A stretch of DNA of 64,000 nucleotides, taken from contig NZ_OY734020.1 of the NCBI RefSeq assembly GCF_963455295.1, forward strand, positions 4,030,001 to 4,094,000, written 5' to 3'. The notes beneath the pieces were generated by a model. It had not been told where the DNA came from, did not search any database, and saw only the letters and a program-made list of their open reading frames with translations. Shown here in pieces: positions 37,882-41,710 of this stretch; within the stretch, counting starts at the first letter, position 1; each line of letters begins with the position of its first letter. The translations under genes were made by a program, and so were the position numbers. This stretch comes from Candidatus Thiodiazotropha sp. CDECU1 (GTDB taxonomy: Bacteria; Pseudomonadota; Gammaproteobacteria; Chromatiales; Chromatiaceae).

Positions 37882-38150
37882 TAGGGCCTGTTAACACTAA
37901 TCCAATGCACTCTGTTGTGCCTGAAAAAACGCCAATCAAGGCGCGAGGAGAGAAGTTTGGTCACTCCAAATGAACGACGAGCAACGCTGAGTGGCGCTTT
38001 TTCAGGCGCAACCCGAAGGGCTGGGGCTGTTTTTGCGCCCAGCGGCGTTATCATTCGCTCATGTAGCCGGGCTACACCACGCTCATTCTGCCTTGCTGGG
38101 CGCAAAAACAGTCCCAGCAGAGCGCATTGGATTAGTGTTAACAGGCCCTA
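37882..38150. mobile_element. ~269-bp non-coding element with terminal inverted repeats (copy A)
   Basis: The ends are TAGGGCCTGTTAACACTAATCC and its complement. The next arms also pair (TCCAATGCACTCTG with CAGAGCGCATTGGA, 13 of 14), making an outer stem of about 33 bp. Inside are two hairpins: GCCTGAAAAAACGCC/GGCGCTTTTTCAGGC and GGGGCTGTTTTTGCGCCCAGC/GCTGGGCGCAAAAACAGTCCC. It lacks any ORF. TA lies at both outer ends, which suits a TA-target (IS630/Tc1-like) MITE. It ends 2 bp before the start of the GT2-HAD fusion gene. Confidence 0.85.
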
Positions 38151-38151
38151 G

Positions 38152-41100
38152 ATGCCAGCAATCAGCGTTATCATCCCCTGCTATAACCATGCACGCTACA
38201 TTGCGCAGGCGATCGAAAGTGTCATCCGGCAATCCTTCAGTGATTGGGAACTGATCATCATCGACGACTGTTCCCAGGATGACTCCTGGCCTGTGATCGA
38301 CGATTTCACCGACAAACGAATTCACGCTACCCGACATGAGCGAAATCTGGGCGCCCACACCACCATCAACGAGGGACTGGCGCTGGCGAAGGGTGATTTC
38401 CTGACAATACTCAATTCGGATGACACCTACAGTCCGGACAGGTTACAAAAACTCTATACCAAGGCAACAGAGGAAGGGATTGCCTTCCTGGCAACCAGAG
38501 TGCAACCGATCAGCGCCGATGGCTCACCCATGGATGACCCGGACAGCTACTGGCACCAGTGGTACTCAGGACTACTCGAGACCTATCGGGAAAACAAGCA
38601 ACTCCTGACCGCTTTGTGCAAGGGTAATCTGCTGATTACCACATCGAATTTCTTCTTCAGCCGCGAGGTATACGATAAGCACGGTGGATTCGCCGATTAC
38701 CGCTACGTACACGACTATGAATTCGTCTTGAGACTGATACTCGCAGGGCACAAGACCGACCTGCTGGACGACAGCGCTCTGGTGCAATACCGCATACACG
38801 GCGCGAACACCATCCAGGAGAACCCGGTTGCGGCGATTATAGAAACCTTTCAACTATTGAGCGGATCGACACCTGAAATACTTGCCCATTCCCGGCAGTA
38901 TCGCGACACTAATCTTTCCCTCATCAAACAACAGTTAGACTGGCTTGGTGACAATGTGCAGGCCACGATTGAGCAAAAAGAGACAGCTCATCAACAACAG
39001 ATCGCCTCACTTACACAACATATCGAAGAGAACAAAAAACAACTCGAGCAGAATTACCAACAGCAGATATCCGCCATCTATAACAGCACCTCGTACCGCC
39101 TGGGAAACAAAATTGTAAGTCCTATTCAGCGCGTCCGAAATCGGCTGACACGCTTCCTCAACAGAAAAGAACATCGGATACACAACATACAGGAGACCCA
39201 GGCATTCATCCTTAAAAATCGCCACCGGCTCAAATGTGTCTCATTCGATATCTTTGACACCCTGCTGGCCCGGGTCATCGAACCCCCTGAAGCGGTACAG
39301 ATGGCGGTATGCCGTGAACTTGCGGCAATCCTGGGCGGAGACCATACCGCTGCAAGCGTATGCCAGGCACGGCAAAAAGCGGAACTACACCTGCGCACGC
39401 TGGCGCGGGAAAACAGGGGTGACGGTGAGTGCCATTTCAACGATCTGGTGGATGATTGGGTGGAACAGCTGGATGCCGGGATTCCCAAGCAGCGGCTGGC
39501 AACCCTGATCCACAAGATCGAAGTCGAAATGGAGTGTCTCGCCCTGTATGTCAAACCCGGTATGCTTGAGTTGCTGGACTGGATCAAACAGCAGGATCTC
39601 ACCCTGATCGCCACCTCGGATATGTATCTTGGAGAACGACATATCCAGGAGATCCTGAGTGATAAGGGATTACTGCACAAGCTGGATGAACTCCACGTCT
39701 CTTCAGAATCGGGCCTATGCAAACACTCGGGCAAGCTGTTTCAGCATATCCTTGAACAACATGGATGGAGTCCGGAGGAGCTGCTGCATATCGGAGACAA
39801 TCCGATCTCCGACAGTCAGGCATTGCTGACTCAGGGCGGGATCGGCCTGCATCTGCATGAAAAGCATGAATTGATTCGACGCAGGCATCAGGCGCTGCAT
39901 CACGAAATGTGTCACCACGGCGGCCCCTGGCCTGGCATGTGGTTTTCACAGGTATACGATGCGCTACTGGCACAACAGGCTGACAGCCAGGAGGAAAACA
40001 GCTTTTTCTATCGATATGGGCGTCATCAGCTGGCACCTGTATTCAATATTTTCATGGCCGGTTTGATTGAGGCTGTCAGACGGGATCGGATCGACAAGCT
40101 CTTTTTCGTTGCCAGAGACGGCTTTATTTTTCAGCAACTCTACCAGCAGTGGAAGGGGGATGATTGTCCCCAGGGCGACTATCTCTATGCGTCCAGAAAG
40201 ACCATCATGGCCGCATCCATCAGTCAGGGCATGACGGTCGATCAGGCCCGTATGGCACTCTTCAATCCAAAACAGCAGGGACTACTATCGATATTGAAAA
40301 CCTTCGGCCTGGACAGGGATGAGTTCGAAGCACATGCCCATCGCCACGGTTTCAAAGCGATGGATAAACCTCTCACCGATCACCGGGACAGACGCCTCAA
40401 GAGTTTTCTCGATGATCCGGAAGTACAGGCCAAAATCAGCGCATACGGCACCCTTTGCCAGGAACGCCTGGAACGCTACCTGGAGCAAATGGGTTTCTTC
40501 ACCCACCACAACATCGCCTTTGTGGATATCGGCTGGAACGGCACGATCCAGAAATATCTCAAGCGCGCGTTTGGCCATCGCCACGACTTCCCGAAAATGT
40601 CCGGTTACTATTTCGCGTTCGTCGGCAAGATCCATAAGGAGTTCGGCGAGGATAACCGGGTGCACGGCCTGCTGTATGACGCCAACAGTGACCAAGAGGC
40701 ATTCAAAACCGCCGCCGAGTTCGAGGAGCTCTTTGAGCAGGGCGCGCGATCCCTGGAAGCGACCACCCTGGGTTATGCGGATGATGAGGGAACCATATCA
40801 CCCATCCTCAAACAGGATGACACCGCAGACCGAATAGCAGAGATTCATTGCAATGGATCAATCAAACAGATCCATACCGGTATCCTGTCGAGCACCGAGG
40901 CGTTTATCAATGCCCACCGCTTGACGGGATTGGACTTCGCTCAACTGCGGCCGTATGGTTTCGCCCTCCTCGAGCGATCCATTATCTATCCCACCAGAGA
41001 CGAGGTTGAGCATATTACCGGGCTTGCCCACAGTGAAGACTTCGGCCATGAGAATATCCTGAACCTGAAAGCACCACCCATCAGACTTGGTGGCGTGCTG

Positions 41101-41226
41101 TTTCACCCACGCGCGGTATGGCACAACCTGCTCAATGCACCCTGGAAGGCAGCCATGTTTGTCGACCTCCCCACCAAAGCATGGAACTTCATGTTCAGGG
41201 TCTTGAAAGTAGTGAGACACTCGTGA
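38152..41226 (+). CDS. GT2 glycosyltransferase - HAD hydrolase fusion
   Basis: 1024 residues. Residues 1-~240 are a GT-A glycosyltransferase family 2 domain (ISVIIPCYNHARYIAQAIES, SDDTYSPDRL as the metal-binding DxD-like motif, YDYEFVLRL). Residues ~270-345 are coiled-coil and linker. A HAD-type hydrolase follows: FDIFDTLLAR has the nucleophile Asp366 and acid Asp369, then TSDMYLGERH and GDNPISDSQ near 548. The C-terminal third has FFVARDGFIF near 654 and GWNGTIQKYL. HAD proteins of this COG5610-like kind occur in polysaccharide clusters. Substrates are not readable. The start has no evident ribosome-binding site, since the repeat element ends 2 bp before it. Confidence 0.85.
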   Translation: MPAISVIIPCYNHARYIAQAIESVIRQSFSDWELIIIDDCSQDDSWPVIDDFTDKRIHATRHERNLGAHTTINEGLALAKGDFLTILNSDDTYSPDRLQKLYTKATEEGIAFLATRVQPISADGSPMDDPDSYWHQWYSGLLETYRENKQLLTALCKGNLLITTSNFFFSREVYDKHGGFADYRYVHDYEFVLRLILAGHKTDLLDDSALVQYRIHGANTIQENPVAAIIETFQLLSGSTPEILAHSRQYRDTNLSLIKQQLDWLGDNVQATIEQKETAHQQQIASLTQHIEENKKQLEQNYQQQISAIYNSTSYRLGNKIVSPIQRVRNRLTRFLNRKEHRIHNIQETQAFILKNRHRLKCVSFDIFDTLLARVIEPPEAVQMAVCRELAAILGGDHTAASVCQARQKAELHLRTLARENRGDGECHFNDLVDDWVEQLDAGIPKQRLATLIHKIEVEMECLALYVKPGMLELLDWIKQQDLTLIATSDMYLGERHIQEILSDKGLLHKLDELHVSSESGLCKHSGKLFQHILEQHGWSPEELLHIGDNPISDSQALLTQGGIGLHLHEKHELIRRRHQALHHEMCHHGGPWPGMWFSQVYDALLAQQADSQEENSFFYRYGRHQLAPVFNIFMAGLIEAVRRDRIDKLFFVARDGFIFQQLYQQWKGDDCPQGDYLYASRKTIMAASISQGMTVDQARMALFNPKQQGLLSILKTFGLDRDEFEAHAHRHGFKAMDKPLTDHRDRRLKSFLDDPEVQAKISAYGTLCQERLERYLEQMGFFTHHNIAFVDIGWNGTIQKYLKRAFGHRHDFPKMSGYYFAFVGKIHKEFGEDNRVHGLLYDANSDQEAFKTAAEFEELFEQGARSLEATTLGYADDEGTISPILKQDDTADRIAEIHCNGSIKQIHTGILSSTEAFINAHRLTGLDFAQLRPYGFALLERSIIYPTRDEVEHITGLAHSEDFGHENILNLKAPPIRLGGVLFHPRAVWHNLLNAPWKAAMFVDLPTKAWNFMFRVLKVVRHS

Positions 41227-41417
41227 AAACGACAACACATAACAACAAACAATCTGAATCGAGTAACAGCTACCTCAGTCCATCGAGACTGTTTCTCTAT
41301 GCCTTACCCTTTCTTCCGCTGCTCAAGCGGGGTGTGCCGTTCTGGCCGGGTTTGTTTCCACTGCTGGGCTACTACCGTAAATGGATCGCCCTGCATATAA
41401 AAAACCGGTTGCTCTGA
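41223..41417 (+). CDS. 64-aa basic hydrophobic protein coupled to the GT2-HAD gene
   Basis: A GTG start at 41223 overlaps the upstream stop (GTGA), so translation is probably coupled. The 64 residues have a polar N-terminus (VKTTTHNNKQSES), then LFLYALPFLPLLKRGVPFW and FPLLGYYRKWIALHIK, likely membrane-associated. I recognise no family. Its coding status rests on the overlap and on composition. Confidence 0.5.
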   Translation: MKTTTHNNKQSESSNSYLSPSRLFLYALPFLPLLKRGVPFWPGLFPLLGYYRKWIALHIKNRLL

Positions 41418-41440
41418 CCCGGGGTTCAATCCATGGCTGA

Positions 41441-41710
41441 TTAGGGCCTGTTAACACTAATCCGATAGGCTCTGCTGGGACTGTTTTTTCGTCCAGCAAG
41501 GCAGAATGAGCGTGGTGTAGCAGCGCTACATGAGCGAATGATAACGCCGCTGGGTGGAAAAACAGCCCCAGCCCTCCGGGTTGCGCCTGAAAAAGCGCCA
41601 CTCGGCGTTGCTCGTCGCTCATTTGGAACAACCAAACCTCGCTCCTCGCGCCTTGATTGGCGCTTTTTCAGGCGCAACAGGGCCTATCGGATTAGTGTTA
41701 ACAGGCCCTA
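41441..41710. mobile_element. ~270-bp non-coding element (copy B, inverted)
   Basis: The same element as at 37882 but in the opposite orientation. The terminal repeats are identical over 22 bp; inner arms read CCGATAGGCTCTG and CAGAGCCTATCGG. TA is present at both outer ends. Relative to copy A the outer stem differs in sequence but keeps its pairing. It lies 23 bp after the 64-aa gene. Confidence 0.85.

Follow-up and report, generated by a model that had tools for sequence, protein, structure and literature searches.

Dispersed intergenic repeats such as ERIC, NEMIS/Correia and bcr1 fold as RNA and can affect neighboring transcripts, and the small dispersed repeats of cyanobacteria are very short palindromic inserts within other repeats. 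Here we describe a miniature inverted-repeat transposable element (MITE) of 269 bp that occurs as two oppositely oriented copies, A and B, in a 64,000-nucleotide stretch (hereafter the window) of the genome of Candidatus Thiodiazotropha sp. CDECU1 (contig NZ_OY734020.1, positions 4,030,001 to 4,094,000), and whose fold is kept while its letters and ends change. ERIC, NEMIS/Correia and bcr1, compared in sequence through Rfam only, differ from it in being shorter, mostly of one stem-loop and not tied to changing terminal repeats; ERIC, NEMIS and Bcr1 appear in tables of PMC2267715 (PubMed Central, PMC). Like the MITEs derived from the IS5 family (IS4/IS5 superfamily), the element is short and gene-less, with IS5-like or matching inverted terminal repeats and a TA target, but it differs in having a conserved, covarying interior of near-constant length across many ends and hosts. 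QMITE1 and QMITE2 of Coxiella are, according to PMC5896051, long palindromic MITEs with stably folding transcripts, QMITE1 yielding a small RNA; there QMITE1 is reported without orthologues in other genomes and QMITE2 with direct repeats of 7-9 bp. Compared by these descriptions, they resemble the present element as long palindromic folding MITEs but differ in range and in direct repeats (PMC5896051). The R0 and R2 repeats of Pseudomonas fluorescens, according to PMC2718517, form hairpins and carry inverted repeats identical to those of resident insertion sequence (IS) elements; they measure 89 and 110 bp, with a simple stem and a variable core, and are abundant in one strain and rare or absent elsewhere. 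On that account the IS-matching inverted repeats and the hairpins are shared with our element, whereas the small size, simple stem and variable core are not.

The search of openly licensed PMC papers for the end sequence, for MITEs in connection with Thiodiazotropha, for structured MITEs and for repeats related to them yielded no description of the element. A known RNA family was likewise rejected, as Rfam gave a single match in the window stretch, far below the gathering score, and no family for the element at 28 loci, where only tRNAs (locus L123) and a cobalamin riboswitch (L336) were matched. That riboswitch match (L336, 1162-1324) overlaps the first 24 nt of an element copy (1301-1570). 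The two copies in the window are identical at 244 of 269 positions and share the same 22-bp ends, TAGGGCCTGTTAACACTAATCC. Their parts are given below, with scores from R1, a covariance model built from 58 copies that had been collected through their sequence and terminal repeats rather than their structure.

37882..38150, plus strand: copy A, whole element with TA at both ends, 269 bp; 317 bits with R1; included in the 58-copy alignment
37882..37903, plus strand: left terminal repeat of copy A, 22 bp
37914..38012, plus strand: hairpin A of copy A, of the G.A type on the plus strand (from folding, family covariation and G.A register)
38013..38019, plus strand: short CCC-loop-GGG hairpin of copy A, between hairpins A and B (from folding; 2 invariant pairs)
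38020..38118, minus strand: hairpin B of copy A, of the G.A type on the minus strand, the reverse-complement homologue of hairpin A
38129..38150, minus strand: right terminal repeat of copy A, 22 bp
41442..41710, minus strand: copy B, whole element in inverse orientation, 269 bp; 310 bits with R1; 244 of 269 positions identical to copy A
41442..41463, plus strand: terminal repeat at the plus-strand left end of copy B
41474..41572, plus strand: hairpin B of copy B (from folding)
41580..41678, minus strand: hairpin A of copy B (from folding)
41689..41710, minus strand: terminal repeat at the plus-strand right end of copy B

The original prediction, a reading of this DNA from its letters, had recognized both inverted copies and their 22-bp ends, and these are real, with copy B beginning at 41442, 1 bp from the 41441 that it gave; the 14-mer arms that it quoted are also present, and each pairs at 13 of 14 positions. 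RNA folding of the two copies gave z = -13.6 and -14.4, with 0 of 200 shuffles as stable in either case. DNA folding of copy A lies as far beyond its shuffles (z = -13.7; 0 of 200 equally stable), which speaks for a rather unlikely alternative, namely that the fold works as DNA, in single strands at replication forks or during transfer or in cruciforms, joining the ends or protecting the element and so aiding the transposase. The outer stem, which joins both ends and varies in sequence with its pairing kept, favors this alternative too, as does the tolerance of DNA for tandem G.A pairs and G-T mismatches; against it, IS5-family enzymes act on double-stranded ends.

Compensatory change had been proposed from the two copies alone, and on that footing it is thinner than it sounds, resting on three of the 10 pairs, out of 79 in the outer stem and two hairpin stems, that differ between copies A and B. 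These three changed on both sides with pairing kept, all in the outer arm; one further pair changed on both sides and is broken, and the remaining six changed on one side, leaving one copy mismatched in five of the six. The family gives a fuller picture. From 89 distinct elements of 230-345 bp, 60 of them 262-274 nt long, a set of 58 copies was obtained after L186 (a poor match, leaving 59) and then L191 were excluded. In this set 93.9% of cells pair (86.4% when shuffled), two-sided changes occur in 58 of 95 pairs (24.6 when shuffled) and in 310 cells (50 when shuffled; 0 of 500 shuffles as high), and sliding the partners by 1-3 columns leaves 36-46% paired; RNAalifold alone gave 95 pairs, 57 of them with two-sided change. 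As the 58-copy family was not selected for structure and nevertheless covaries, the fold is kept by compensatory change.

Covariation beyond relatedness, by which a structured RNA is recognized, was assessed in 156 copies against a null in which substitutions were shuffled on a FastTree tree, with the 95th percentile of 60 null maxima as the threshold. In total 44 column pairs covary, and 42 of them lie in the fold: nine in the terminal repeat, six in the sub-terminal arm, nine in stem A, two in tip A, 10 in stem B, four in helix B and two in tip B. The two others are 54-110, a 1x1 mismatch within stem A, and 235-238, beside the base of hairpin B. The two internal hairpins and the compensatory upkeep of the fold that had been predicted are thus borne out by the 58-copy set and by the tree-aware test alike, and alignment of the family confirms covariation in the outer arms in particular.

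Within the hairpins, the internal boxes are not open loops but tandem G.A/A.G steps set between Watson-Crick pairs and kept in register, which is read on the plus strand for hairpin A and on the minus strand for hairpin B. The sets used for these counts were a diverse set of 23 of the 58 copies together with 56 of 67 matches to the model (omitting L254, L256, L264, L268 and L276; L246, L253 and L292, longer than 276 nt; and the near-duplicates L230, L247 and L272), with L251 and L269 excluded before the G.A, strand and tree-aware tests, and a fresh set in which 79 of 80 loci were counted, L313 (287 nt) being left out. Compatible cells number 692 of 770 in hairpin A (641 when shuffled) and 821 of 924 in hairpin B (686 when shuffled); slides by one reduce them to 213 and 182 of 693 for A, and to 320 of 924 and 294 of 847 for B. 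R1 treats the box positions as unpaired, so that the model does not select for G.A pairing. At two positions of hairpin B, 39-41 of 77 copies have Watson-Crick pairs instead of G.A, and several positions of hairpin A show the same replacement in roughly half of the fresh set.

Tandem G.A pairs become C.T when the opposite strand is read, so that only one strand of each hairpin is the proper one, plus for A and minus for B. The hairpins show a preference for these strands: in the lower stems, read on the proper strands, G-T cells outnumber A-C cells by 211 to 89 (columns 28 versus 10, one-sided p = 0.0025, this and the other strand-test p-values being nominal because related copies do not count as independent), whereas in the outer stem the two are balanced (79 versus 78 cells; columns 13 versus 15; in the fresh set 94 versus 85 cells). 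By copy, the fresh set divides into 44 plus, 16 minus and 19 even. A cruciform would use both strands alike, contrary to this preference, which is a further point against a DNA role. The proposal of selection on folded RNA or single-stranded DNA stands as to the covarying fold; the outer arms cannot decide between RNA and DNA, because G-T and A-C are equally common there, and it is the hairpins that are informative.

It is improbable that the fold is under no selection and that the arms are alike through templated (quasi-palindrome) correction together with the fit of both ends to the same transposase, even though this would explain outer arms without strand preference as well as the perfect matching of very different ends. 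The hairpin stems need not fit a transposase, yet 19 of their 47 pairs are significant in the tree-aware test. Correction would also turn the G.A boxes into perfect pairs, whereas they are kept in register in many hosts, nor would it lead the two hairpins to prefer opposite strands.

The family is well represented in the host genome (4.46 Mb), with about 31 near-full-length copies in addition to partial ones; with a length of 269 bp, 22-bp inverted repeats and no transposase gene, it has the features by which MITEs are defined. DNA matches to the element were found in all 20 genomes of the same genus and in 6 of 35 other relatives (27 of 56 including the host genome). Counting R1 matches at E <= 0.001, the element was identified in 67 of 369 Gammaproteobacteria genomes (18%; 57 of 271 genera) and in 101 of 398 genomes of an overlapping phylum sample (25%; 52 of 213 genera), about 44 of the 101, as counted from the listing, belonging to one family (f207). 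The background of R1 in the window is 18 bits, itself the hit to a remnant, against 310-317 bits for copies A and B. Full-length matches occur on the Azotobacter chroococcum plasmid pAcX50f and on a plasmid of Pseudomonas aeruginosa PA83, at which no annotated feature was found in the gene table used, itself incomplete. Paired ends add Agaribacterium, Neptuniibacter, Zetaproteobacteria, Porticoccaceae and others to the carriers; a Desulfovibrio stretch with such ends (L170) scores just 53 bits and was therefore not counted. DNA similarity searches gave no match to L235 in phages or E. coli genomes, and none to L093 in plasmids.

The length is nearly constant, 267-271 nt in 127 of 147 model matches examined, and so is the order of the core across hosts, with hairpin A, the CCC-loop-GGG hairpin and hairpin B. 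The ends of copies from other hosts are different and still match each other, e.g. TAGAGCCTGTCTGTGAATAAATC, TAGGGGGCGTTCTCAATTA, TAGGGTCTGTTGACGTTTCG, GGGAACCTCTGATTAATC and TAGTGTCCCGTCTGGC; the core thus outlasts changes of ends. A lone core hairpin near a full copy (L308, 2031-2137, 71 bits) indicates that the hairpins may also occur singly. An ordinary MITE that spread recently between bacteria, with interiors alike through recent common descent only, would fit the presence of the element in every same-genus genome and the 20-nt identical ends in distant taxa. This explanation is nonetheless very unlikely, given the same core under many different terminal repeats and a divergence with pairing kept: among 14 diverse copies identity is 46% in the sub-terminal arms, 58-67% in the hairpin stems and 66-77% in the boxes.

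Mobility of the element was observed at one site, between genes that the translated flanks indicate to be argJ and mutT. Two relatives (L382, L383) read ACC-TA-G where the host genome has ACC-TA-element-TA-GCG, so TA was duplicated, as had been predicted for a TA-target MITE. Eight relatives were aligned at this site, five without an element end and three (L387, L389, L390) with a solo end nearby, TTAGTGTTAACAGGCCCTA, a few bases further on. Locus L005 had been considered as an empty site through an interrupted host-genome gene and was rejected, as the element actually lies upstream of the gene.

For the transposase, the ends point to the IS5 family. In a Pelomonas stretch (L109), 827 bp lie between ends TAGGGCCTGTTAACACTAAT, which depart from the main ends by 0 and 2 mismatches in 20; this interval carries an IS5-family transposase in two overlapping frames, of which the first narrowly misses and the second exceeds the NCBIfam cut-off. 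Two further Pelomonas elements of 838-839 bp (L219, L225) have ends 2 and 6 of 20 bases off those of L109, and both frames of L225 are of the IS5 family (126 and 125 bits; cut-off 110). A second end type, TAGGGCGTGTTGATCTTTCG, encloses an IS5-family gene in L377 (end mismatches 2 and 0; transposase of 253 aa, 266 bits against the same cut-off) and borders one in L378. The genes between such ends match NCBIfam transpos_IS5_3 and Pfam DUF4096/DDE_Tnp_1, and from these sequences transposition in trans by IS5-family enzymes appears likely. A search for two other end types in viral contigs found none. A transposase with matching or similar ends was encountered in other genomes, though none of the L109 type in the host genome; the IS630-type partner that had been anticipated gave way to IS5-family elements (L109, L225, L377, L378), IS630 itself not having been searched for. 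Six DDE_Tnp_1 matches in the host genome were rejected as partner, since they represent another IS with different ends. The core is absent from the transposase-bearing L109, L116, L164, L219, L225, L377 and L378, which have no R1 match, and full IS5-family elements without the core also tell against a DNA fold that aids the transposase.

Taken together, the element probably represents a superfamily of non-autonomous MITEs about 269 bp long, which IS5-family transposases move in trans and whose fold, under selection, serves either orientation. IS5-family transposases would act on the terminal repeats and insert the element at TA; its core consists of two reverse-complement homologous hairpins with a short hairpin between them; with G.A-type forms on opposite strands, one proper hairpin results whichever strand is used. 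That the fold is kept while letters and ends change suggests that the fold itself does something, and the most economical explanation is a module required to fold from either strand. The fold would work mainly as RNA, read through from neighboring genes in any direction of insertion, and RNA from read-through fits because the copies examined sit near genes in tandem, convergent and divergent arrangements. It may serve as a stable processing or insulating module, or as a protein-binding site, that makes insertions tolerable; we infer a host factor and a benefit of the fold on the same model. Very long stems are expected RNase III substrates. A more specific version, which we put forward as possible but tentative, is a mobile structured RNA that rides on, and over time swaps, the ends of whichever IS5-family transposase is available, its two opposed tandem-G.A hairpins ensuring that a transcript in either direction shows one of them to a conserved host factor of Pseudomonadota.

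Several results weigh against the favored reading of a mobile element with a fold for either strand. The tree-aware test was passed by 0 of 10 helix A pairs, 4 of 10 helix B pairs and 0 of 6 GGC/GCC pairs, and most of the 156 copies were found by R1 and may be biased towards pairing, which the 58-copy set is not. Slides of the G.A register by two remain compatible in 387 and 432 of 616 cells for hairpin A, and in 586 of 851 and 522 of 770 for hairpin B (63-70%), because the boxes are purine-rich. The strand preference is weaker in the fresh set (197 versus 120 cells; columns 25 versus 18, one-sided p = 0.18), where A-C exceeds G-T in the G.A helix of hairpin A (52 to 35); in the 58-copy set stem A has no preference (51 versus 50) and only hairpin B does (88 versus 29). 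Rearranged (L251, hairpin B reversed) and shortened (L256, 217 nt) copies occur. The L109 stretch has no match in the host genome, and matches in 6 of 56 relatives. Lastly, no insertion-direction bias is stable across sets: a crude count in tandem gene pairs gave 11 versus 6 in the host genome and 48 versus 17 in others, and stricter gene calls gave 12 versus 3 up to 17 versus 5 in named contigs, 12 versus 11 in the first model set, and 27 versus 14 and 15 versus 13 in the fresh set. The bias held in the named contigs, failed in the first model set and was not firm in the fresh set, for which reason it is not claimed.

Smaller relatives of the element were also observed, two of them in the window.

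23682..23734, no strand assigned: hairpin B region of a third copy, surviving as a decayed remnant; 18.2 bits with R1
5201..5220, plus strand: solo terminal repeat with 1 mismatch in 20, for which window positions 3001-8000 yielded no mate

Beyond the remnant, the sequence looks by eye like the right half of the other copies. Solo terminal repeats, defined by the lack of a mate within about 2 kb when up to 5 mismatches in 20 are allowed, were found at L051-L053, L056-L059, L061, L062, L065, L068, L387, L389, L390 and window positions 5201-5220, one of them at the same gene junction in three relatives (L387, L389, L390). Micro-elements of 33 bp including both TA (TAGGGCCTGTTAACACTAATCCGATAGGCCCTA) are present in L050, L054, L060, L063, L067 and L069, and L055 and L086 have close variants; it looks as though an inner AGGCCCT had been used as the second end. 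In genome G573, the same end type bounds miniatures of about 53-60 bp (e.g. C1:3617004-3617056) beside 269-nt elements. A hairpin-forming insert of 26-27 nt (...ACCCCAAGGGCACTTCCTTCGG...) is nested at several positions of the element in L011, L012, L015-L017, L019, L023-L026, L028, L029, L031 and other Thiodiazotropha contigs, after reference position 123 in 13 of 31 cases and after position 58 in 11 of 31, with a repeated GGCGC-like sequence of 5-7 nt. The 27-nt insert is also found outside the element, within another repeat of the host genome (L067, L076-L084). It looks like a nested nano-element and, compared by description, resembles the cyanobacterial small dispersed repeats, though the hosts differ.

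In the window, a single large reading frame (38152-41226) lies between copies A and B; by eye it resembles a glycosyltransferase, and its ATG begins 1 bp past copy A. An inverted repeat at 41772-41877, with 21-nt arms that are 95% complementary, adjoins copy B, and its interior is similar to the second repeat family, the one in which the 27-nt insert also sits. The sequence TAGAGCCTGTTTATAAACCGC at 37793-37813, 69 bp before copy A, resembles a solo end of another IS5-like type. Between 37700 and 41950, six terminator-like sites were found (3.9 expected), three of them within the copies with five pairs each, and two promoter-like sites (3.2 expected), neither inside a copy; a role as intrinsic terminator was rejected, as the long outer stem has no T run after it.

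The interiors of MITEs are usually regarded as drifting filler, whereas here both length and fold are nearly constant across many genera. Should the fold act at the RNA level, numerous transcription units would be receiving a conserved RNA domain from a mobile element, and the ligand of that domain could be searched for directly. The strand-opposed design would further offer a clean test of how a mobile element becomes blind to its direction of insertion.

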